From: Bacteroidota bacterium
Lineage (GTDB): Bacteria > Bacteroidota > Bacteroidia > JABDFU01
DNA length: 64,000 nt
Direction: 5' to 3'
Assembly: GCA_016183775.1 (NCBI GenBank)
Contig: JACPDY010000014.1
Coordinates: forward strand, 1 to 64,000
Numbering within the stretch: the stretch's first letter is position 1; each line of letters opens with the position of its first letter. The notes beneath the pieces are model-generated. The model searched no databases and was not told the DNA's origin. It worked only from the letters and a program-made list of their open reading frames with translations. Positions 6,402 through 48,485 of the stretch are shown here, in pieces. Position numbers and translations under genes: made by a program.

Positions 6402-9400
6402 TTATACAGGTTTTATATTTCCTAATCGGTCAACTTTTAGTTTTATGCAAATTTCTTTAATCATTGTCCCGTTATCTTTTCTTGTTTCCTTCTCTTTACT
6501 GTTTTTTTCGTAGAAAACTTTTCCGTCCCATGCTTTTTCAGATTTATTATTGGCTCCAAGTTCTTTCGTATCAATAATTGGTTTGGAAAGAAAGTTTGGA
6601 ACAAAAAAACATTGATTACCTGAACAACTCACCATCTTAAAAGTTCGTTCAAATATTTTCTTTTTATTCCTCCAATCAATTGCCTCATCAATTGAAATGT
6701 TATTTTTTACTTTACCGAATTCTTCTTGTGTCGGTACATAAACCAGATCATTAGGAGAAAGAATTATTGTTTTGTACCCTTCTCTTTTTTCAGCAAATGA
6801 TTCACCCTTTACTAAGCGTTCAATAGCTTTATGTGTTGCAAGTGATTTATAATCGTCCCTTTCTTTTGTGGCTTCATTTTCGTAAATAATAAAGTAAGCA
6901 TTACTACCTGCATCGACTTCCACATACTGATTACGAAATTTACTTTCAGAGCTTTTTTGTTCTGCAATTGTAACTTTGTTGATTGTTTTTCCTTGATTCT
7001 TTTTAGCTAATGCTTCTAAACCTTCTCCTGAAAAAGCAAGCCCAGGATCGTTTTTGTATTCAACACATTTTAAATGGTTGAGTAATAATGTTCCAATTAC
7101 TGATTTCCCTTCCTTTGCATACGGTATTTTCTTAATTTTCTTTTCATCAAATGATTTATCAAGTGTTACTCTTTTAGCTGCATATTCTGTAAATACAGCT
7201 ATTCTTACATTATAAATTTTTTCACCATTTAAATTCATTGGCTTAAACTTCTTCAAATATTTTTCTATTGCCTCTACTTTACCCCCCGATAATTCAATAA
7301 TATTTTTCACCATCTCCCTTGTCTCCTGATCGTAGATGTAACTTGCGTGTTTTTGGTTTGGAGTGTTCTGTGCCTCCATCCTTGCAATTTGCAGTTTCAC
7401 TATATCCAACATTTCTTTATGAGTGCGGAAGCTTTTGGTTTCTATCTCTTTAATATAAACAATGCCTTGAGGTTCTTTGAACATTGACTTACGTACAGCC
7501 ATCCATTTAGGATTCGATTTTTGTTTAAAAATCACTTTTTCAAAACTTCCATCGGCTTGCTTTTCCCATTTTGTAAACTTATTGTGAGGTTTGCTTACAA
7601 CTTTATGATTGGTTTTAAAACTAACAATTGTTTCTTCTAATTTAGTTCGGGCATCTTTTGTAAATTCCATCCAAGGTTCTTTAAATTCTCTGATTTTCCC
7701 TTTGACTAAGGTTTGTTGAACCTTTTTTAATTCAGCATCAGAATCAACAGCATTCAAGGAATTAAGATAACGAATATGTTCCCGTGTAGTTGCTGCTATT
7801 ATCAAGGCATCCAAGGCATGGTGGCGGTGGTCAATTCTCTTTAATTCCAATTCTGGATTTTCGGGAACATTAATATCTATATCATTTGCATCAAACTTAT
7901 TTTGCTGGACATATTCTTTTTTATTTATCTCTTCAAGTCGTTTAAATCTTGGCAATAATAATTTTTTCCATTCCTTATTTAATCCCCATTTTTTCTTTAG
8001 TTCAGTAGTAACACTCCCGCCTGTAAAAATTATTCCTGTTTTATCTTTAGCAACAGGGCATAAGAGTTCAGCAACTTTCCTTGTAATGTATCTTGTATCG
8101 TTGAGCTGCCTGGATACAAAATCTTCGGGAACTTCTGTAGCGAGAAGGTTTTTTAATTTACTCTTTTGATATTTGAATGTTTCGCTGCATCTATTTTCAT
8201 AATCATTTTCGCCAAGAATAAAATATTGTTTGCCATTTATAACATGTTCTTTCCCCTTTTCACCTCCAAATGTTTTGATGAAATTTCTTGCTAGAATGTT
8301 GCCTTTATAAGGTGGTGGATTAATTGCTGCCTCTGATATTACCAAATTATTCATGCTGTCATTTGCGAATTTTGATTGAGGAATGATATGCTCAATTTCA
8401 TAGTCTGTTGAAAATAATTTACTGATAGGTATTATTTTTCCTGTGTAAGGAGAACGGCACGATTGTGTCAACCAAAGAATGTACTTTTTTATTTCAGCTT
8501 TGGTTGGGACTCTTTCCTTGTTCCCATCTTTGAATAATTTTTCAAATTCATCATCTTTAACATTTGAACCGCTTTTCCAAATCCTGAATTTGTCAATATC
8601 TCTTGGACTTTCAGGGTTTGGCTTTACTAAAAATTGCGAAGTAACTTTTTTTTCTTCGTCATTATATTCTTCAAAACTCTCATTCAGTAATTCCTTCAAT
8701 AGCTTTTTGATGCGTTGTTTTTCAGCATGGTTTTTGTTCTGATTCTTAGTGATTTTTTCTTTTTCTTCCATATTCTTTTTCAATTCTCTTCCAAGCTCAA
8801 TGTGTATTTCATCGGGCTGTCCATGTTTTTTCCAAACATCTTTTACCAAGAGTAAAGTTTCACGTACTATTTGTTCTACAACTGGATTTCGTAAACTATT
8901 ATTAGGAATTAATTTTAAAACATCTAATTCATCAATTTTAGTGTAAGTGATATCATTTCCTTTTTCTGAATGTCTGTCATATACCAAGTAACAAGCCTGA
9001 TAGGTGTTTAATTCTTGAAGAAGATTTTCTTTTTTAATAAAACTCTTTAATAATTGCTTTTGAATGTCATCGTCAGCAATTTCATTTATTTTTCTTTCGT
9101 TATAATTTATTTCTTCTAATCGTTTCGTTATTTCCGCTGCTCTTATTTTTACTTCTGAAGTAATTAAATTTTCATTCCAGTATTTACCAACTCGCATTAA
9201 AGGCAGTAGTTTTCGGATAGCCTTAGTTGAATAGGCCGCATATTTTTTTTGTTTTTCTAACTCCGGTGAAATAGCAAGTTGATTTATTACATTTTGAGGC
9301 AAATCAAATTGATTCGTTTTATTTTCTAAGGCAGACTTAATTCCCTTTACTGATTTTTCAGCATCTGCAGAACTAATAGAGAATAAGATATGCCACAATT

Positions 9401-11048
9401 TGTAAAACTTTTCGCTATCGTTCAATAATAGTTCTCCTTTCGCTTCGTAATTACACATGTTAAATACTTTTCGGAAATAATATTTTGTTTCATTACCTTG
9501 TAATTTTTTATCGACTTTGAAAAACATATTTATACGATGTGTTTTGTCCCTGATTTTTATTACCGAATTGTTATTTATAATTTTAAATACATTTTCTTGG
9601 CTTATTTCTTTTGACGTATCAAACTTCTCAAACAACTCCTCTTTTACTTTTGGATTTATAAATTGAGAAGTAACATCGACATCAATTTTTTTATAGCCTT
9701 CGACCATTTTTTCCCTTTCGAGAATTTTAATGTTATGAATGTCTTGCCAAATACGAAATTCCTGAAAATCAGGACTTGATTTGGACGCACACTTTGAGCC
9801 GTACATTATACCATCAACCCCTTTTTTCTTTTCATATTGACATTCGCCGATAGAATTTTTTTGTGATTTTAATTCTCGTTGATAATAGATAATGTCGTTG
9901 CTTATGATATGAAGTAAGTCCTTAGTAAGAAACTCATTGACCTTAGACATTTTTGCTTTTACCTGTGTAGGATAAAGCACTTCAACAATATTTTGTAGTA
10001 GAATTGTATCTGTATTTAGTTTTTTCAATTCCTCATTTAATTCTAATTGTTTTTGCCAAATTGCTTCAAGTTCCTTTTTATATTTACTTCTGTATACGGC
10101 ATATTGTCTGATTTTAAAATCATTTTTATTTTCTTTTAATCCATCAAAAAAGTATTCTCCTGGATGTTTATCACCCATTTTATTGTCTTGAGCTGTCGTA
10201 CACAAAGCCCAATCGTCAGGCTTTGGTATTTGAGGTTTTAGTTGTTTTTCTTTCCCGGTTTTTTCATCAACTGATACAGTAATCAAAAAAGTGTATTCTT
10301 TTTCTTCCCATTCCGGCTTTTTCTTTCTCTCTTCCGTCCATGGTTTTACCCTATCACTATATGGTGTAATTTCATATTTATAGTTCCCTTTTTTATTCTT
10401 TTCCTCACTTTCAAGTTTAACGGATTTTATTTTTAAAATCTCTACCCATTTTATTTCTTTTACGTCACCTTCTTTCAAATCTTTTCTACTACTCTTAAAT
10501 CCTCTTCGCTGGTTCAACATATAAAGGATCCGAGCAAGTTCAGAAAATGTAATCTTTTCAGTAAGTGCTTTTTTTCTCAAATAATAAATTATCCAATCTT
10601 CTGATAAAGCTAATTTTCCGTCTTTGTTTTTCACTCCAAGTTCCTTCGTGGCTTCATTAATAGTTTGTTGGGTAAATGGTAAGTAATCACTAATGGAAAA
10701 CTTAAAATTCTCATCATCTTGTATGTTCTTTTTAAAATTTTCAGGGAACTCTTCATTGAGCCAACCAAGAACTTTAAATACTTTTATTAATCTTGTCCTT
10801 CTTAATTTATATCTCTGCTTTAATCTTCTGGAACCTCTTTTTACTCTTCTGAAAGCCGCTTTAGTTTCTACCGGAGAACCTGATTCAAATTTTGTAAGAT
10901 AATCACCATCCATTGGAATTATTCTGCTACCAAGCCATTCAATACTTCCTTCTTTGCCATAGTCAGCAAATGACTCCGGTAGATTAATTAGAGCTCCACC
11001 TATTGAATTCGTACCGATATCAAGTCCAAGAATTTTTTTAGCTTTCAT
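6402..11048 (-). CDS. cas9: CRISPR-associated endonuclease Cas9 (type II-C)
   Basis: 1548 residues, long for a type II-C Cas9. RuvC-I is ILGLDIGTNSIG (Asp10). The arginine-rich bridge helix is AAFRRVKRGSRRLKQRYKLRR. RuvC-II is DEIHIELGREL (Glu751). The HNH motif is YEIEHIIPQS, with catalytic His887, Glu886 in the usual Asp position as in other Bacteroidota enzymes, and an Asn in SMNNLVIS. RuvC-III is DHRHHALDALI (His1077, Asp1080). The last 350 or so residues should hold the wedge and PAM-interacting domain. All catalytic residues are present. Codon use is strongly AT-rich and Lys/Asn-heavy compared with the nuo operon, which suggests transfer. It is the first gene of the cas operon and diverges from the tracrRNA. 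Confidence 0.97.
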   Translation of the reverse strand: MKAKKILGLDIGTNSIGGALINLPESFADYGKEGSIEWLGSRIIPMDGDYLTKFESGSPVETKAAFRRVKRGSRRLKQRYKLRRTRLIKVFKVLGWLNEEFPENFKKNIQDDENFKFSISDYLPFTQQTINEATKELGVKNKDGKLALSEDWIIYYLRKKALTEKITFSELARILYMLNQRRGFKSSRKDLKEGDVKEIKWVEILKIKSVKLESEEKNKKGNYKYEITPYSDRVKPWTEERKKKPEWEEKEYTFLITVSVDEKTGKEKQLKPQIPKPDDWALCTTAQDNKMGDKHPGEYFFDGLKENKNDFKIRQYAVYRSKYKKELEAIWQKQLELNEELKKLNTDTILLQNIVEVLYPTQVKAKMSKVNEFLTKDLLHIISNDIIYYQRELKSQKNSIGECQYEKKKGVDGIMYGSKCASKSSPDFQEFRIWQDIHNIKILEREKMVEGYKKIDVDVTSQFINPKVKEELFEKFDTSKEISQENVFKIINNNSVIKIRDKTHRINMFFKVDKKLQGNETKYYFRKVFNMCNYEAKGELLLNDSEKFYKLWHILFSISSADAEKSVKGIKSALENKTNQFDLPQNVINQLAISPELEKQKKYAAYSTKAIRKLLPLMRVGKYWNENLITSEVKIRAAEITKRLEEINYNERKINEIADDDIQKQLLKSFIKKENLLQELNTYQACYLVYDRHSEKGNDITYTKIDELDVLKLIPNNSLRNPVVEQIVRETLLLVKDVWKKHGQPDEIHIELGRELKKNMEEKEKITKNQNKNHAEKQRIKKLLKELLNESFEEYNDEEKKVTSQFLVKPNPESPRDIDKFRIWKSGSNVKDDEFEKLFKDGNKERVPTKAEIKKYILWLTQSCRSPYTGKIIPISKLFSTDYEIEHIIPQSKFANDSMNNLVISEAAINPPPYKGNILARNFIKTFGGEKGKEHVINGKQYFILGENDYENRCSETFKYQKSKLKNLLATEVPEDFVSRQLNDTRYITRKVAELLCPVAKDKTGIIFTGGSVTTELKKKWGLNKEWKKLLLPRFKRLEEINKKEYVQQNKFDANDIDINVPENPELELKRIDHRHHALDALIIAATTREHIRYLNSLNAVDSDAELKKVQQTLVKGKIREFKEPWMEFTKDARTKLEETIVSFKTNHKVVSKPHNKFTKWEKQADGSFEKVIFKQKSNPKWMAVRKSMFKEPQGIVYIKEIETKSFRTHKEMLDIVKLQIARMEAQNTPNQKHASYIYDQETREMVKNIIELSGGKVEAIEKYLKKFKPMNLNGEKIYNVRIAVFTEYAAKRVTLDKSFDEKKIKKIPYAKEGKSVIGTLLLNHLKCVEYKNDPGLAFSGEGLEALAKKNQGKTINKVTIAEQKSSESKFRNQYVEVDAGSNAYFIIYENEATKERDDYKSLATHKAIERLVKGESFAEKREGYKTIILSPNDLVYVPTQEEFGKVKNNISIDEAIDWRNKKKIFERTFKMVSCSGNQCFFVPNFLSKPIIDTKELGANNKSEKAWDGKVFYEKNSKEKETRKDNGTMIKEICIKLKVDRLGNIKPV

Positions 11049-20186: not shown

Positions 20187-20229
20187 AGTTAGCAGTTGGC
20201 AATGATCAATCTTTTGCCAACTGCCAACT
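20187..20229. repeat. Heptad-periodic inverted repeat, nuoA-nuoB gap
   Basis: Arms AGTTAGCAGTTGGCAA (20187-20202) and TTGCCAACTGCCAACT (20214-20229) pair at 15 of 16 positions. GTT recurs after 7 nt within the left arm. Confidence 0.85.
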
Positions 20230-20253
20230 GTCCTTTGTCAACTGAATGCATTT

Positions 20254-20814
20254 ATGAGCGCTGCCGAAATATACGATAAACCAAAATTATCAGGTTCCCC
20301 TTTGGGTTATGAAGGGCCCGGTTTTTTTGCAACGTCACTCGATAAAGCGGTTGGAATGGCGCGTAAAAATTCGATCTGGCCGTTACCATTTGCGACTTCA
20401 TGCTGTGGGATTGAATTCATGGCCACTATGGCTTCTCATTACGACCTTGGCCGCTTTGGGTCTGAGCGATTAAGCTTTTCTCCGCGTCAGGCCGATCTGT
20501 TAATGGTGATGGGAACCATTGCCAAGAAAATGGGACCGATTTTGCGCCAGGTGTATGAACAAATGGCAGAACCCAAGTGGGTGTTAAGCATGGGGGCATG
20601 CGCTTCCAGCGGAGGAATATTTGATACTTACAGTGTACTTCAGGGAATTGATCGGATTATTCCCGTTGATGTTTATGTACCCGGCTGTCCGCCCCGCCCC
20701 GAACAGGTAATTGACGGACTTTTACAGATACAAAAATTAGTTGAAAACGAATCGTTGCGCAGGCGTGACTCGGAAGAATATAAAGCTTTACAGGCAAAAT
20801 ACGGATTGGAGTAA
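20254..20814 (+). CDS. nuoB: NADH-quinone oxidoreductase subunit B
   Basis: 186 residues. It binds the last iron-sulfur cluster (N2) before quinone. The adjacent cysteine pair is in [13 protein letters not shown], the third ligand in MGACASSGG and the fourth in VPGCPPRPE. It sits in the connecting part of complex I. nuoC starts 3 bp after its stop. Confidence 0.97.
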
Positions 20815-20817
20815 TTT

Positions 20818-21315
20818 ATGGAAAACACACTTCTTGCGGAGCTTACTGATAAATTGAAAACTACATTTGGTGATGATATTGTTGGATCGGAACAGCAGTA
20901 TGATTTTCCGGTCATCACAGTTAAAAAGGAAAAGATAGTTGAGGTAATAAAAGCGTTGCATGCGGATGGGTTTAATTTTCTCACAGATCTTACCGGTATC
21001 CATTACCCCGATAATAAAGGGAAAGAGTTAGGTGCAATTTATCACCTGCATGACATGCCGAAAAACAGGCGTGTGCGTTTAAAAGCACTTGCAAGTATTG
21101 CCGACCCCTCAATTCCAACGTTGACAGGAGTTTTTCCGGGCGCCAACTGGATGGAGCGTGAAACGTATGATTTTTTCGGAATTAATTTTAAAGGCCACCC
21201 CAATCTGAAACGCATTTTGAATATGGATGAAATGAACTATTTTCCAATGCGAAAGGAATATCCGTTAGAGGATGCAAGGCGGGAGGATAAGGATAATACG
21301 ATGTTTGGAAGGTAA
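20818..21315 (+). CDS. nuoC: NADH-quinone oxidoreductase subunit C
   Basis: 165 residues of the 30-kDa subunit family, with the signature motif ERETYDFFGINFKGHPNLKR. It helps form the quinone-binding peripheral arm. Here it is a separate gene, not fused to nuoD as in some gammaproteobacteria. A 24-bp-arm inverted repeat follows the stop. Confidence 0.96.
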   Translation: MENTLLAELTDKLKTTFGDDIVGSEQQYDFPVITVKKEKIVEVIKALHADGFNFLTDLTGIHYPDNKGKELGAIYHLHDMPKNRRVRLKALASIADPSIPTLTGVFPGANWMERETYDFFGINFKGHPNLKRILNMDEMNYFPMRKEYPLEDARREDKDNTMFGR

Positions 21316-21319
21316 AATA

Positions 21320-21385
21320 GTTCCGGGTTCCGGGTTCAAAGTTCCAGGTTGTCCACAATCTAACTTTGAACCCGGAACCCGGAAC
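21320..21385. repeat. Heptad-periodic inverted repeat, nuoC-nuoD gap
   Basis: 24-bp perfect arms (21320-21343 and 21362-21385) with an 18-nt loop. The left arm is built on the unit GTTCCGG, with GTT at arm positions 1, 8, 15 and 22. The element begins 5 bp after nuoC and ends 9 bp before nuoD. Confidence 0.92.
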
Positions 21386-21393
21386 CCCAAAAG

Positions 21394-22611
21394 ATGGCTG
21401 AAGTAAAAGACATAGCAGAAAATAAAAAGGCGGAAGAAAAATTCTATTCCACTCTCAACCTCGGCCCTACACATCCTGCCACACATGGTATTTTTCAGAA
21501 TGTGTTGAAAATGGATGGGGAGATCATTGTTGATGCTGAATCTACTATTGGATACATACACCGTGCATTTGAAAAGATTGCGGAGCACAGGCCCTATAAT
21601 CAAATTACACCTTTAACCGACCGCCTTAATTATTGTTCATCGCCCATCAATAATATGGGATGGGAAATGACAGTTGAAAAGCTGATAAAAGCAGAGATTC
21701 CCAAGCGTGTGCAATACATGCGTATTGTTATTATGGAGCTTTCCCGCATCGCCGACCACCTTGTGTGCAACAGCGTTATTGGTGTGGACACAGGAGCAAT
21801 GACAGGGTTCTTATATGTGTTCCAGTACCGCGAAAAAATATATGAGATATTTGAAGAGATCTGTGGAGCACGACTCACCACCAATATTGGCCGTATAGGA
21901 GGATTCGAGCGCAACTGGAATCAAACAGTCTGGGATAAAATAAACAAGCTCTTGCCTGAACTTGAAAAGGGATTAAAAGAGTTTGAGAACCTGCTTACGC
22001 GTAACCGTATTTTTATGGATCGTACTATAAATTGCGGACCCATTACAGCCGAAAAGGCGCTTGCATATAGCTTTACTGGTCCTAATTTACGTGCTGCCGG
22101 TGTAGATTACGATGTTCGTGTAATGAACCCATACTCATCCTACGAAGAATTTAAATTTATTATTCCGGTGGGGACAAATGGAGATACCTATGATCGTTTT
22201 ATGGTGCGTGAAAAGGAAATGTGGGAAAGCATCAGCATAATAAAACAGGCGCTTGAAAAAATAAAAAAAGAGCCTGCAAATATCTTTCATGGTGATGTTC
22301 CTGAATTTTATCTTCCTGACAAGCAGGAGGTATATAACAATATGGAGGCGCTTATTTATCACTTTAAAATTATAATGGGTGAGATGGACGTACCTGTTGG
22401 TGAGGTTTATCATTCTGTCGAAGGCGGTAACGGTGAACTTGGATTTTACCTCGTTAGTGATGGTGGACGAGCGCCTTTCCGTTTGCATTTCCGCAGGCCC
22501 TGCTTTATTTATTACCAGGCTTATGCTGAAATGATAAAAGGCAGGATGTTGAGTGATGCGATCTTAACGATGAGCAGCATGAATGTGATCGCGGGAGAAT
22601 TGGATGCGTAA
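21394..22611 (+). CDS. nuoD: NADH-quinone oxidoreductase subunit D
   Basis: 405 residues of the 49-kDa subunit family, related to the large subunit of [NiFe] hydrogenases. It has LGPTHPATHG near the N-terminus and RAPFRLHFRRPCF near the C-terminus. With NuoB it forms the quinone site. The length is normal. Confidence 0.97.
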   Translation: MAEVKDIAENKKAEEKFYSTLNLGPTHPATHGIFQNVLKMDGEIIVDAESTIGYIHRAFEKIAEHRPYNQITPLTDRLNYCSSPINNMGWEMTVEKLIKAEIPKRVQYMRIVIMELSRIADHLVCNSVIGVDTGAMTGFLYVFQYREKIYEIFEEICGARLTTNIGRIGGFERNWNQTVWDKINKLLPELEKGLKEFENLLTRNRIFMDRTINCGPITAEKALAYSFTGPNLRAAGVDYDVRVMNPYSSYEEFKFIIPVGTNGDTYDRFMVREKEMWESISIIKQALEKIKKEPANIFHGDVPEFYLPDKQEVYNNMEALIYHFKIIMGEMDVPVGEVYHSVEGGNGELGFYLVSDGGRAPFRLHFRRPCFIYYQAYAEMIKGRMLSDAILTMSSMNVIAGELDA

Positions 22612-22613
22612 AA

Positions 22614-22664
22614 CAATTGGCATTTACCAGTTGGCAAAACATAATCATTGTCACCTGCCAATTG
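22614..22664. repeat. Weak heptad-periodic inverted repeat, nuoD-nuoE gap
   Basis: Arms CAATTGGCA (22614-22622) and TGCCAATTG (22656-22664) are perfect. A second TTGGCA lies 14 nt, two heptads, after the first. It looks like a worn copy of the stronger elements in this operon. Confidence 0.65.
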
Positions 22665-22678
22665 CAAACTAAAGTTAA

Positions 22679-23218
22679 ATGGCTACTAAACAAATAAAAT
22701 TTTCTGATGATGCGTATGAATTAGTACAGCGCATCATAAAGCGTTACCCGGAAGGGAAGCAGAAATCAGCTATACTTCCTGTACTGCATATTGCGCAAGC
22801 GGAGTTTGATGGCTGGCTAAGTGCGCCCGTGATGGATTACGTAGCGTCTATTTTAAGTATTCAGCCCATTGAAGTATACGAAGTGGCTTCATTTTACAGC
22901 ATGTTCAATTTAAAACCTGTTGGAAAATGTCTGATCGAAGTTTGTCGTACCGGACCATGTTGGTTAATGGGGGCCGAGGACGTAGTAAAATATATTGAGA
23001 AGAAATTGAATATAAAGGAAGGCGAAACCTCAAAGGACGGAATGTTTACTTTAAAAACAGTTGAATGCCTTGCCGCATGCGGCTCTGCGCCGATGATGCA
23101 GGTTGGGGAGACGTACCATGAGAATTTAACACTTGAAAAAGTCGATTCAATTTTACAGGATTATAAATCGAAAGGCGAATTGGTAACACATTGGGATAAA
23201 AAGCATATAAAAAAGTAG
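22679..23218 (+). CDS. nuoE: NADH-quinone oxidoreductase subunit E
   Basis: 179 residues of the 24-kDa thioredoxin-like subunit. It binds a [2Fe-2S] cluster with ligands in CRTGPCWLMG and ECLAACGSAP. It works with NuoF in the NADH-oxidising tip. The stop codon overlaps the first base of the following inverted repeat. Confidence 0.96.
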   Translation: MATKQIKFSDDAYELVQRIIKRYPEGKQKSAILPVLHIAQAEFDGWLSAPVMDYVASILSIQPIEVYEVASFYSMFNLKPVGKCLIEVCRTGPCWLMGAEDVVKYIEKKLNIKEGETSKDGMFTLKTVECLAACGSAPMMQVGETYHENLTLEKVDSILQDYKSKGELVTHWDKKHIKK

Positions 23219-23270
23219 TTGTTGGTTGTTAGTTGTCGGTTCTTGGAACTAACAACTAACAACCAACAAC
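23218..23270. repeat. Heptad-periodic inverted repeat, nuoE-nuoF gap
   Basis: 19-bp perfect arms (23218-23236 and 23252-23270) with a 15-nt loop. The left arm starts GTTGTTGGTTGTTAG, with GTT at positions 1, 8 and 15 as well as between. It fills the gap from the nuoE stop to 9 bp before nuoF. Confidence 0.9.
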
Positions 23271-23278
23271 TGGCAACT

Positions 23279-24610
23279 ATGAGACAGTTATTAATAGATA
23301 ACATTACATCTTCCACTTCACTAAGCGATTATAAATCGCATGGCGGATATGCCGCTTTGGAAAAAGCATTGAAGATGAAGCCCGAAGAAATTGTTGCTGA
23401 AGTTCAGAAGTCAGGACTGCGTGGCCGCGGAGGTGCAGGTTTCCCAACGGGCATGAAGTGGAGTTTTATTGCGAAGCCGGAAGGTGTTCCCCGTCATTTG
23501 GTTTGTAACGCGGATGAAAGTGAGCCGGGAACATTTAAAGACCGGTACCTGATGCAGCATAAGCCGCACATTCTTATTGAAGGCATGATCATTTCCAGTT
23601 TCGCGTTAGGTGCAAATCTGTCCTACATATATATACGCGGTGAAATGATGGTGCAGTTCCACATTTTGCAAAAAGCCATTGATGATGCGTATGCAGCGGG
23701 TTTGCTCGGTAAAAATATTCTGAACAGCGGCTTTGATCTCGATCTCCATGTGCATTGCGGAGGCGGGGCTTATATATGTGGTGAAGAAACTGCTCTTATT
23801 GAATCATTGGAAGGCAAACGCGGCAATCCGCGTATCAAACCTCCATTCCCTGCCATTGCAGGTGTATGGGGACGGCCAACGGTTGTGAATAATGTTGAAA
23901 CGATCGCTGCAGTCGTTCCTATTATTAATATGACGGGCGATGAATACGCAAAAATTGGTGTTGGTAAAAGTACAGGCACAAAACTTATTTCTGCCAGCGG
24001 TCATATTAATAAACCGGGTGTTTATGAAATTGAATTAGGGGTTCCGGTTGAAGAATTTATTTATTCCGAACAATATTGCGGAGGTATAAAAGGAGGGCGA
24101 AAATTGAAGGCAGTTGTTGCGGGAGGCTCATCTGTTCCTGTCCTTCCAACTGAACTTATTTTAAAAACTGCAAAAGGCGAACCGCGCTTGATGACCTACG
24201 AATCATTAGGTGACGGAGGCTTTGCAACAGGCACGATGCTTGGTTCGGGTGGATTTATTGTGATGGACGAAACAACAAGCATTGTAAAAAACCTGTTTAA
24301 TTTTTCCCGTTTCTATCATCATGAAAGCTGCGGACAATGCAGCCCATGCCGTGAAGGAACCGGATGGATGGAAAAAATATTGCGAAAGATACTGGATGGT
24401 CGCGGAACAATTGCAGACATTGATCTGTTATGGGATATACAAAGTAAAATAGAAGGAAAAACTATTTGTCCGTTGGGTGAAGCTGCTGCATGGCCGGTGG
24501 CAGCCGCTATCCGTCATTTCAGACCTGAGTTTGAGGAATATGTAAGGAATCCTCAGAATATTAAAGATGTGAAGCACTATTATAGATTAAATAATTTAGT
24601 TGAAGTATAA
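23279..24610 (+). CDS. nuoF: NADH-quinone oxidoreductase subunit F
   Basis: 443 residues from ATG 23279. An in-frame upstream start at 23219 would translate the inverted repeat and is unlikely. It binds NADH and FMN, with GRGGAGFPTGMKWSF and GGAYICGEETALIESLEG. A [4Fe-4S] cluster is held by ESCGQCSPCREG and a later cysteine in TICPLG. It is the electron entry point of complex I. Confidence 0.96.
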   Translation: MRQLLIDNITSSTSLSDYKSHGGYAALEKALKMKPEEIVAEVQKSGLRGRGGAGFPTGMKWSFIAKPEGVPRHLVCNADESEPGTFKDRYLMQHKPHILIEGMIISSFALGANLSYIYIRGEMMVQFHILQKAIDDAYAAGLLGKNILNSGFDLDLHVHCGGGAYICGEETALIESLEGKRGNPRIKPPFPAIAGVWGRPTVVNNVETIAAVVPIINMTGDEYAKIGVGKSTGTKLISASGHINKPGVYEIELGVPVEEFIYSEQYCGGIKGGRKLKAVVAGGSSVPVLPTELILKTAKGEPRLMTYESLGDGGFATGTMLGSGGFIVMDETTSIVKNLFNFSRFYHHESCGQCSPCREGTGWMEKILRKILDGRGTIADIDLLWDIQSKIEGKTICPLGEAAAWPVAAAIRHFRPEFEEYVRNPQNIKDVKHYYRLNNLVEV

Positions 24611-24612
24611 AT

Positions 24613-24665
24613 GGTTTTGGGTTTCAAGTTTCAGGTTGCCAACCTGAAACTTGAAACCCAAAACC
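24613..24665. repeat. Heptad-periodic inverted repeat, nuoF-nuoG gap
   Basis: 26-bp perfect arms (24613-24638 and 24640-24665) around a single C. The left arm has GTT at positions 2, 9, 16 and 23, with units such as GGTTTCA. It begins 2 bp after the nuoF stop. Confidence 0.93.
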
Positions 24666-26725: not shown

Positions 26726-27224
26726 AAAGTTGGCAAAGGGCAGTTGGCAGTTCGCAATGATTGTCAAGGCCTGATGTTAATTGTAAAACATTAAAAGGAT
26801 GGGATCTTTTAAAGATTTGACAGTTTATAAAAAGGCATTTTCTTTGTCAATGGATATTTTTAAAGCAAGCAAAAATTTTCCGGACGATGAAAAATATGGG
26901 CTTACGAGTCAAATAAGACGTTCGTCTCGTTCGGTATGTTCTAATATTGGGGAAGGATACAGGAAAAGAATATATAGTGCGCATTTTACCAGCAAAGCAT
27001 CCGATGCTGATATGGAAAATTCAGAAACTCAGGTTTGGTTGGACTTTTCTTTAGCTTGTGAATACATTACAAAGACAACATATGATGAGTTTACGTCAAG
27101 ATCCGAGGAAATAGGAAGATTAATTAATCATATGGTTGAAAATCCTGAAAATTATAAAGGTAAACTCATTAACAAAAATTAAAGTCGGAACTTTGCCAAC
27201 TGCAAATTGCCAGCTGCCAACTTT
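26726..27224. repeat. Split heptad-periodic inverted repeat enclosing the S23 gene
   Basis: The outer arms AAAGTTGGCA (26726-26735) and TGCCAACTTT (27215-27224) are perfect complements. AGTTGGCAAAG (26728-26738) also matches CTTTGCCAACT (27191-27201). The left arm keeps the 7-nt register, with GTT at offsets 4, 18 and 25. Read on the minus strand, the right arm shows GTT-like triplets at 5, 12, 19 and 26. The arms lie immediately inside the nuoH stop and nuoI start, with the S23 gene as the loop. Confidence 0.75.
26799..27182 (+). CDS. S23 / four-helix-bundle protein (23S rRNA intervening-sequence type) within the nuo operon
   Basis: 127 residues starting MGSFKDLTVYKKAFSLSMDI, with QIRRSSRSVCSNIGEGYRKR, the hallmark of the S23 family. 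Relatives are encoded in intervening sequences of 23S rRNA genes, and the fold is shared with Avd of diversity-generating retroelements. The biochemical role is unknown. It is not a complex I subunit. It sits between nuoH and nuoI, which are normally adjacent, with inverted-repeat arms on both sides, so it looks like a passenger of an inserted element. The frame is intact and follows the operon direction. Confidence 0.92.
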   Translation: MGSFKDLTVYKKAFSLSMDIFKASKNFPDDEKYGLTSQIRRSSRSVCSNIGEGYRKRIYSAHFTSKASDADMENSETQVWLDFSLACEYITKTTYDEFTSRSEEIGRLINHMVENPENYKGKLINKN

Positions 27225-36689: not shown

Positions 36690-36767
36690 GTTATCAGTTA
36701 TTGAGTTGTTAGTTATTCAGGCGAATGTTCAAATAACTCAATAACTCAATAACCCAATAACCAATAA
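36690..36767. repeat. Heptad/octad inverted repeat, exbB-exbD gap
   Basis: The left tract starts GTTATCAGTTATTGAGTTG, with GTT at positions 1, 8, 16 and 23. The right tract is a near-tandem AATAACTC repeat. The arms are complementary but imperfect. It starts with the first base after the exbB stop. Confidence 0.8.
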
Positions 36768-36777
36768 CTTTTAAACT

Positions 36778-39227: not shown

Positions 39228-40165
39228 TGAGAATCCCCGCCCCTTTCCTTCGGCCTTCTTACTTCTTATTTCTTACTTGCCTGGCTTCTTGCATAAACCC
39301 TCCCGGCATGAAGGAGCCGACCGATACAGCTACTTCGGGGGATGTAAATATTGTAATTGATGAATCATATACATTGTTGTTTGATACTGAAATTCACACT
39401 TTTCAGTCACTTTATGTGAATGCAAAAGTGCATGCTAGGTATCTTCCTGAAGATGATGCGATAATCGCGCTCATGAACGACTCGGCCAAAGTAGCGGTGA
39501 TCAACAGGCCGCTGAAGGAAGAAGAAAAAAAGAATTTCGGGGCGAAGAATATTTTTCCAATTGAAACAAAGATTGCCGAGGATGCTATTGCTTTTGTAGT
39601 TAACACCGAAAACCCTGATACGAACATTAAGTTTGAAGAAATTGCCCGGATAATGGCAGGTATTGATACAACATGGAAGCAGGTAAATGAAAAATCAACC
39701 ACTGGTGGAATAAGAATAATTTTTGACAATCCTAATTCGGCCAACGCAAGGTACATTGCAAACTTTTCAAAGCAGGCGCAGCTGCCTAAAAATGCATACG
39801 CGGTTAAGTCGAATGCAGAAGTGATCGAATATGTAAATAACAACAAGAACGCGATAGGTGTTGTAAGTGTAAATTGGATAAGTGACAAAGATGATAGCAC
39901 AACTATTGGTTTTTTAAAGAAGATCAAGGTGTTGGGCATTAGCAAAGCCGGAAACACCGAAAAATACTATAAGCCTTACCAGGCTTATATAAAAACGAAG
40001 GATTATCCCTTTTGCAGGGATGTTTATATGATCAATCGCCAAACCAGGGCCGGGCTTGGCATGGGGTTTGTATCATTTGTGGCAGGAGAGAAGGGGCAGC
40101 GTATTATATTAAAAATGGGACTTGTTCCATCAATTGCTCCGACGCGGATGGTGGAGATACATTAA
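39224..40165 (+). CDS. PstS-like periplasmic substrate-binding lipoprotein
   Basis: 313 residues. The signal peptide ends in the lipobox LASC, so it is membrane-anchored. The PstS-like fold is shown by MNDSAKVAVINRPLKEEE, NAIGVVSVNWISD and the C-terminal VSFVAGEKGQRIILKMGLVP. Family members bind phosphate for ABC uptake, but no Pst ABC genes are nearby. In the tonB cluster of Bacteroidota this gene may instead serve a sensing or envelope role. Confidence 0.88.
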   Translation: MMRIPAPFLRPSYFLFLTCLASCINPPGMKEPTDTATSGDVNIVIDESYTLLFDTEIHTFQSLYVNAKVHARYLPEDDAIIALMNDSAKVAVINRPLKEEEKKNFGAKNIFPIETKIAEDAIAFVVNTENPDTNIKFEEIARIMAGIDTTWKQVNEKSTTGGIRIIFDNPNSANARYIANFSKQAQLPKNAYAVKSNAEVIEYVNNNKNAIGVVSVNWISDKDDSTTIGFLKKIKVLGISKAGNTEKYYKPYQAYIKTKDYPFCRDVYMINRQTRAGLGMGFVSFVAGEKGQRIILKMGLVPSIAPTRMVEIH

Positions 40166-46970: not shown

Positions 46971-46987
46971 TTTTTGTTTTGATTTCG

Positions 46988-47041
46988 GGTTTCAGGTTTC
47001 AGGTTGAGTTTGGTTAAACCGCCAACTTGAAACCTGAAACC
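46988..47041. repeat. Heptad-periodic inverted repeat between rfaE2 and the flippase-like gene
   Basis: 19-bp arms (46988-47006 and 47023-47041) pair with one mismatch. The left arm is GGTTTCAGGTTTCAGGTTG, with GTT at positions 2, 9 and 16. It has the same unit as the nuoF-nuoG and nuoM-nuoN elements, although this region is read on the minus strand. Confidence 0.9.
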
Positions 47042-48433: not shown

Positions 48434-48485
48434 AGCACAACAAAACTAAGTATTAAATAAGAAGTAAGAAGTGAGAGAGCAGAAT

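Follow-up and report, generated by a model that had tools for sequence, protein, structure and literature searches.

In the window analysed here, a 64,000-nt stretch of a Bacteroidota genome, the nuo operon carries inverted repeats in the nuoA-nuoB, nuoC-nuoD, nuoD-nuoE, nuoE-nuoF and nuoF-nuoG gaps, as the original prediction had stated. The nuoA-nuoB gap holds an empty rhythmic hairpin (20187-20229) whose 16-nt arms (20187-20202 and 20214-20229) are built on the word AGTTGGC, and the nuoC-nuoD gap a second one (21320-21385) with perfect 24-nt arms (21320-21343 and 21362-21385) and the words GTTCCGG/GTTCAAA. The left arm of the nuoE-nuoF hairpin (23217-23271; arms of 20-26 nt, words AGTTGTT/GGTTGTT) overlaps the nuoE stop codon, while the perfect 26-nt arms of the nuoF-nuoG hairpin (24613-24665; words GTTTCAG/GTTTCAA) are separated by a 1-nt loop. 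The nuoD-nuoE hairpin (22614-22664) has a degraded beat and, read by eye, short arms of 9 nt (CAATTGGCA, 22614-22622, and TGCCAATTG, 22656-22664). GTT does recur at positions 1, 8, 15 and 22 of the nuoC-nuoD arm and at 2, 9, 16 and 23 of the nuoF-nuoG arm; the heptad beat is real, but elsewhere it can be 8 nt instead of 7 and GTT is not universal. Similar elements had been noted at exbB-exbD and rfaE2, and both are present, the hairpin near rfaE2 (46981-47041, also given as 46988-47041) with a 7-nt beat and the word GTTTCAG, but that of the exbB-exbD gap (about 36690-36770) with an 8-nt beat and the word AATAACTC. Two further heptad arrays were recorded, AAGAAGT at 48455-48476 and CTTCTTA at 39254-39278.

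The picture of a nuo operon whose gaps are filled by heptad hairpins was correct as far as the hairpins go, but it left out the nuoH-nuoI gap, where a gene-bearing element in the same operon was missed by the first reading. This full-length element (26726-27224) consists of a left rhythmic arm (26726-26757, AAAGTTGGCAAAGGGCAGTTGGCAGTTCGCAA), a gene for a 127-aa protein on the + strand (26799-27182; PF05635, E 2.8e-32) and a right rhythmic arm (27193-27224, TTGCCAACTGCAAATTGCCAGCTGCCAACTTT). PF05635 is the 23S rRNA intervening-sequence protein (IVP/S23), a four-helix bundle. PF05635 proteins form homopentameric rings, and the relatives of this protein in the PDB, 2rld and 2gsc, have five chains each; its match to bAvd (PF22296) is weak and below the cut-off. 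Inverted arms surround all nine PF05635 genes of the genome, and in nearly all cases a beat of 7 or 8 nt is clear. Among 491 ORFs in a 752-kb (0.75 Mb) sample of the genome, taken in stretches, a flanking inverted repeat (score at least 13) with a 7-nt beat was found around four of four PF05635 genes vs one of 487 other ORFs (Fisher 2e-9). At least five of the nine PF05635 elements have word families in common with empty hairpins: GTTTCAG joins IVP copy L189 to the nuoF-nuoG and rfaE2 (46988) hairpins, GTTGTTA joins L193 to nuoE-nuoF, AGTTGGC (also common to the nuoA-nuoB hairpin and the element at 26726-27224) joins L191 to nuoA-nuoB, GTTATTGA joins L190 to exbB-exbD, and TCGGTAA joins L192 to two other loci. 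The array word AAGAAGT is likewise an arm word of L197, and the nuoC-nuoD words are absent from all nine IVP arms. Since the IVP copies inside one genome are mostly just 30-60% identical, there has been no recent burst of copying.

The rhythm of the hairpins is not due to chance. In the 42 intergenic gaps of the window there are 20 matches at lag 7 and 14 at lag 8, vs about 0.1 in dinucleotide shuffles, and in the intergenic DNA of the 752-kb sample lags 7, 8, 14, 16 and 21 give 700, 384, 424, 374 and 263 matches vs 0.4-3 in shuffles. Every other lag has at most 13 matches in this sample, self-similarity being confined to 7, 8 and their multiples. Repetition at 7 or 8 nt occurs in 28 of the 53 intergenic inverted repeats with arms of at least 15 nt, and the pattern of three AACYNNN units followed by AAC occurs 292 times in the genome vs 43 for a reversed control. 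The scan for a 7-nt period in other inverted repeats, called for by the original prediction, thus revealed a large excess. Its proposal that elements start at stop codons fared less well: in gaps of at least 120 nt, arrays lie within 10 nt of the stop in 31 of 93 cases vs 24 of 93 for the start (p 0.28), and we have dropped stop-codon targeting, arrays adjoining the start about as often.

Comparable nuo gaps of other Bacteroidota have the same rhythm and different words. In one same-genus genome (G002) the nuoE-nuoF and nuoF-nuoG gaps, of 6 and 3 nt, have no hairpin, and the nuoH-nuoI gap holds a hairpin that lacks the gene and is built on a different word, AGCGAAT; in another (G005) the nuoD-nuoE gap is 30 nt long and hairpin-free. 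In one pair of 92%-identical orthologues the element differs by an indel of exactly 14 nt, or two heptads, confined to one arm, and another pair has different words at the same site. Corresponding nuo gaps of same-genus genomes display presence/absence, the 14-nt step in a single arm is a directly visible case of slippage-like unit change, and the notion of a class defined by rhythm and not by sequence agrees with words that vary across Bacteroidota and with elements that come and go among genomes of one genus.

These comparisons bear on the reading of the hairpins as structured RNA elements that act in the nuo mRNA, whether as sites of RNase III processing, as stabilising stems, as terminators or as switches of translation, with arms that selection on the RNA stem would keep paired. 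Their long stems and their position between co-directional genes, near stop and start codons, fit such a role, and known 23S intervening sequences (IVS) are cut by RNase III (PMC4990558). We nevertheless consider it quite improbable: RNA selection predicts an excess of G-U mismatches, whereas the arms contain 69 G-U vs 97 A-C on the sense strand, leaving selection for pairing unsupported; a relative of the same genus has no hairpin in its gaps; and the words are not conserved, the conserved sequence across relatives that would mark ordinary RNA structures having not been seen. Intrinsic terminators are rejected, no site with a G+C-rich stem followed by a T run being found at the empty hairpins, as are known RNA families, none of which reached its gathering score in Rfam 15 (hairpin models gave sub-threshold matches only).

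The tie between rhythm and PF05635 extends well beyond this genome. Of 297 Bacteroidota genomes sampled, 233 have PF05635 genes, often with 5-15 copies each. At 30 further Bacteroidota loci the flanks pair with a median of 11 vs 7.5 in chimeras (p 6e-12), and their periodicity is almost confined to lags 7, 8, 14 and 16. No lag-7 match was found in 68 kb of intergenic DNA from PF05635-free genomes, vs 259 in 77 kb from genomes with at least 10 PF05635 genes; the density of lags 7 and 8 together differs between these groups, which are not matched by phylogeny (Mann-Whitney p 0.0027), and the 40-kb samples of several PF05635-rich genomes are free of lag-7 arrays. Outside Bacteroidota, PF05635 is present in all four genomes with clear lag-7 arrays at the nuo locus vs 10 of 35 others (p 0.012). 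When non-syntenic sites are pooled, IVPs that resemble one another also tend to have resembling words (r 0.20, p 0.0002). Of the tests of this correlation, the pooled one alone was significant: within single genomes it is not significant here and, after removal of close pairs, weak in two others.

A pure mutational by-product, in which 7-nt-preferring slippage and template switching at hairpins would act in any free intergenic space with neither element nor protein, predicts neither the arms around all nine PF05635 genes, nor the absence of arrays in the sampled PF05635-free genomes, nor words that track IVP relatedness at non-syntenic sites. This makes it unlikely, even though the 14-nt indel and the symmetric, transition-rich arm mismatches are what it would leave behind and, among the long simple repeats of many prokaryotes, no unit length is commoner than 7 nt (Mrazek 2007, cited by PMC4679880). 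It is very doubtful that the IVP gene is a passenger homing into rhythmic hairpins already made by another agent, such as a GxxExxY (PF13366) nuclease-like protein or a Y1 transposase. GxxExxY genes likewise lie between inverted arms, one of them at this very nuoE-nuoF site in a genome of the same genus, and the genome studied here has eight Y1_Tnp genes; however, of PF05635, GxxExxY and Y1 only the first has flanks with the 7/8-nt beat. GxxExxY arms use other words (CACAGAG, CGCAAAG, ACGAAT) with no 7-nt beat, so that we treat these units as a sister class and not as the heptad maker, and RAYT/Y1 was rejected as the agent since the flanks of the six Y1 loci tested have no such beat. The genome also contains one reverse transcriptase (RVT_1) gene, considered as a conceivable helper.

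The hairpins are thus probably gene-less (non-autonomous) members of a small mobile-element family related to 23S rRNA IVS. A full-length member would comprise two inverted arms of degenerate 7-nt (sometimes 8-nt) word arrays around one PF05635 gene, and the window would contain a single full member, in nuoH-nuoI, accompanied within that operon by five or more empty ones. Insertion would occur between a stop codon and the next start, presumably because damage is least there. At birth of an element, one arm may be copied from the other by fold-back or template-switch synthesis, and the arms would then diverge through point mutation and slippage in 7-nt steps; we favour arm copying at the DNA level, not specifically the hairpin priming first proposed. 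Empty copies could result from gene loss or from mobilisation in trans. We infer that the PF05635 protein moves or binds the arms: the pentameric IVP may contact perhaps one word per subunit and aid movement or persistence of the element, the evidence for a causal role being association only. No transposase, target-site duplication or transposition event was seen for the elements, whose words differ between copies, contrary to ordinary terminal repeats, and we know of no catalytic activity of PF05635 proteins. TRAP and Hfq rings read repeated short motifs, and it is possible, if tentative, that PF05635 rings likewise maintain and spread elements in multiple phyla that are recognised by rhythm, their 7-/8-nt word arrays being bound one word per subunit, with the 23S IVS as the few that happened to settle in rRNA genes.

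According to PMC4990558, no function is known for S23 proteins and the origin of IVS is unclear. The tie of PF05635 to rhythmic arms, the gene-less copies and the gap-by-gap gain and loss would give this family a natural substrate, and the link to the arms makes testable the suggestion of Ralph and McClelland 1993, as cited in PMC4990558, that the ORF of an IVS is there for mobility. The same link may account for odd intergenic heptad repeats so far noted piecemeal, and it shows that elements can form a class through nothing but their period, a kind of class beyond the reach of similarity searches. The hairpins resemble empty versions of a bacterial element that is widespread but has hardly been studied, and whose full form carries a gene for a small ring-forming protein. 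Our literature searches found no published description of such rhythmic hairpins and nothing of relevance on either the words or GxxExxY; for four-helix-bundle proteins the relevant match was the Coxiella IVS work only.

Among known systems, REP/BIME sequences with their RAYT (Y1) genes are also small intergenic palindromes that probably owe their mobility to a gene elsewhere, but REPs have a conserved family sequence, whereas here several unrelated words occur in one genome and Y1 genes lack rhythmic flanks. MITEs are likewise gene-less inverted-repeat relatives of a gene-carrying element; the resemblance here is at the level of word families, with word order specific to each element, no common terminal sequence and no target-site duplication evident when filled and bare nuo gaps are compared by eye. 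GxxExxY (PF13366, PDDEXK_3) units occupy comparable gaps and likewise enclose a small gene in inverted arms, but with CACAGAG-like words and no 7/8-nt beat. The TAACTGA repeats of Beggiatoaceae, Cyanobacteria and some Bacteroidetes are short intergenic heptad arrays near start codons whose reverse complement has GTT every 7 nt, and the Elizabethkingia and Gramella cases include other heptamers (PMC4679880); they differ in being one fixed heptamer in direct repeat (MacGregor 2015), inverted in one case, with no link to PF05635 (PMC4679880), whereas our words vary and the arms are inverted. The last comparison is with the 23S rRNA IVS of Leptospira and Coxiella. Every member in this account is flanked by protein genes and none sits within a 23S (or 16S) rRNA gene, many are empty (the five empty hairpins lack the ORF), and their arms are 7-nt word arrays whose words change from copy to copy. 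They nonetheless have the complementary ends with a long stem and, in the element at 26726-27224 and eight other copies, the S23/IVP (PF05635) ORF between inverted terminal arms, and the Coxiella 23S IVS itself has GACAGAT heptamers next to the S23 ORF, in numbers that vary among strains (PMC4990558).

The inverted repeats previously noted in five gaps between consecutive nuo genes (nuoA-nuoB, nuoC-nuoD, nuoD-nuoE, nuoE-nuoF and nuoF-nuoG) are all present, and four carry a clear 7-nt beat, the nuoD-nuoE gap having only short, degraded arms. The exbB-exbD element is also rhythmic, but with a beat of 8 nt rather than 7. A 752-kb sample of the source genome yielded 66.7 kb of intergenic DNA, delimited by simple ORF calling with ATG starts, in which self-matches numbered 700, 384, 424, 374 and 263 at lags 7, 8, 14, 16 and 21, respectively, and at most 13 at each remaining lag from 3 to 20; the 7/8-nt beat lies far above chance as judged by dinucleotide shuffles. 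The expected excess of 7-nt autocorrelation is also seen in the inverted repeats, the best lag being 7 in 26 and 8 in 2 of the 53 intergenic repeats whose arms are 15 nt or longer.

In the same-genus genome G005, the hairpin of the nuoE-nuoF gap is replaced by a GxxExxY (PF13366) gene between inverted arms (locus L179, 1682-2366), which raised the question of whether gene-carrying units also exist in an empty form, represented by the hairpins. This unit appears to replace the nuoE stop codon, lengthening the NuoE C-terminus, and its ends are tandemly duplicated, possibly an assembly artefact. The source genome has nine genes for PF05635, the 23S rRNA intervening-sequence protein (IVP/S23), all nine flanked by inverted arms; the 7/8-nt beat is clear in most of them and weakest at L194, AAAAATTAATAATTAAAAAT. 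One such full element occupies the nuoH-nuoI gap of the window (gene 26799-27182; arms 26726-26757 and 27193-27224), and the word families GTTTCAG, GTTGTTA, AGTTGGC, GTTATTGA and TCGGTAA are common to full and empty copies. Within the 752-kb sample, inverted repeats with a 7-nt beat flank 4/4 PF05635 ORFs versus 1/487 others (Fisher, 2e-9). The GxxExxY units appear to form a sister class whose CACAGAG-like arms lack the 7-nt beat. PF13366 occurs in 60 of 118 Bacteroidota genomes, and the name GxxExxY receives only two passing mentions in the open-access literature searched. At loci L182-L188 and L308-L336, GxxExxY genes lie between inverted arms of CACAGAG, CGCAAAG or ACGAAT words.

The link between beat and PF05635 extends to other genomes. 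At 30 PF05635 loci across Bacteroidota, flanks pair better than chimeras of different loci (median 11 versus 7.5, p 6e-12), and strict matches number 42, 5, 49 and 12 at lags 7, 8, 14 and 16, with none at any other lag from 3 to 16. Strict lag-7 matches number 259 in 77 kb of intergenic DNA from 20 genomes with at least 10 PF05635 copies versus none in 68 kb from 20 genomes lacking the gene (613 versus 3 at a looser threshold); the p value of 0.0027 on lag 7+8 density ignores phylogeny and compares small samples, about 40 kb per genome, from phylogenetically unmatched sets. Outside Bacteroidota, PF05635 is found in all four genomes with clear nuo heptad arrays, chosen by inspecting lag-7 counts, versus 10 of 35 others (p 0.012). 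Among 51 IVP copies, the more similar proteins at non-syntenic sites also tend to have more similar words (r 0.20, p 0.0002), and loci L195 and L350, whose hosts belong to different bacterial families, encode IVPs 61% identical and both carry GTCATT words.

The original observation of different words with one shared period extends to the 41 Bacteroidota loci of a nuo set retrieved by NuoF search (with 39 from other phyla), where the rhythm is common and the words differ (TCTAAAA in Flavobacterium, AGCCAAA in Chryseobacterium, ACTCAAT in Hymenobacter). Intergenic matches at the Bacteroidota loci exceed background at lags 7, 8 and 14 only, and 20/34 of their inverted repeats have a 7/8 beat versus 3/12 outside Bacteroidota. 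Orthologous gaps also differ in the presence of hairpins and in repeat units: in same-genus G002 the nuoE-nuoF (6 nt) and nuoF-nuoG (3 nt) gaps are bare, and nuoH-nuoI holds a gene-less hairpin of word AGCGAAT where the source genome has the full element. An orthologous hairpin differs from that of G004, another same-genus genome, by exactly 14 nt, in the left arm only, within surroundings 92% identical, and at another site the two genomes have hairpins of equal beat and differing words (GTTTCAG versus GTTCCGG/GTTCAAA). IVP elements with differing words lie upstream of apparently one thiolase-like gene in several genomes (L206, L207, L210, L212, L214 and L225), a pattern that suggests either turnover of words at a single site or insertion more than once. 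In other Bacteroidota, IVP elements (L208, L215) occupy the apparent nuoC-nuoD gap, which holds an empty hairpin in the window.

Selection on an RNA stem would predict more G-U than A-C among sense-strand arm mismatches, which is not seen in 81 periodic repeats (69 versus 97; in the source genome, 28 versus 33, with transitions making up 61 of 97). Judged from sequence, the symmetric, transition-rich mismatches are consistent with arms made as DNA copies that later decay, and the whole-unit indels with slippage or unequal exchange; together they suggest that the arms were probably born by intramolecular copying and drifted afterwards. Of the slippage and hairpin priming first proposed, the former fits the indels, and for the arms we infer a copying step. 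The elements sit in gaps between co-directional genes, where the arrays hug stop codons, as claimed, but start codons alike, with no stop-specific targeting found in their placement; this fits insertion at the few points where an operon tolerates it. Neither transposition nor target duplication was observed.

We assign the PF05635 protein a putative role in the elements from its association with them. The solved structures of its relatives 2rld and 2gsc each contain five chains, and Xanthomonas S23 has been described as a homopentameric toroid (PMC4990558); a ring in which each subunit reads one word would be an attractive explanation of the beat. Tandem copying fits the uniform period within each array at least as well.

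On the minus strand, the window also encodes a Cas9-like protein (1548 aa, RuvC_III and HNH_4; 6402-11048), with a CRISPR array nearby (30 copies at 76-78-nt spacing; 122-2381), and an AbiEii-type nucleotidyl transferase toxin homologue (PF08843; 45489-46121), close to a rhythmic hairpin (46981-47041).

REP/RAYT, terminators and Rfam families were each tested and do not fit the hairpins, and no description of the class was found in the open-access literature searched. One lead is provided by the TAACTGA repeats (PMC4679880), a probable relative with a fixed word. In Coxiella burnetii, the 23S rRNA intervening sequence (IVS) is reported to carry GACAGAT heptamers beside its S23 ORF, in two or three copies depending on the strain (PMC4990558). 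The full elements resemble such sequences but are sited outside rRNA genes, and we therefore do not class them as IVS in the strict sense.
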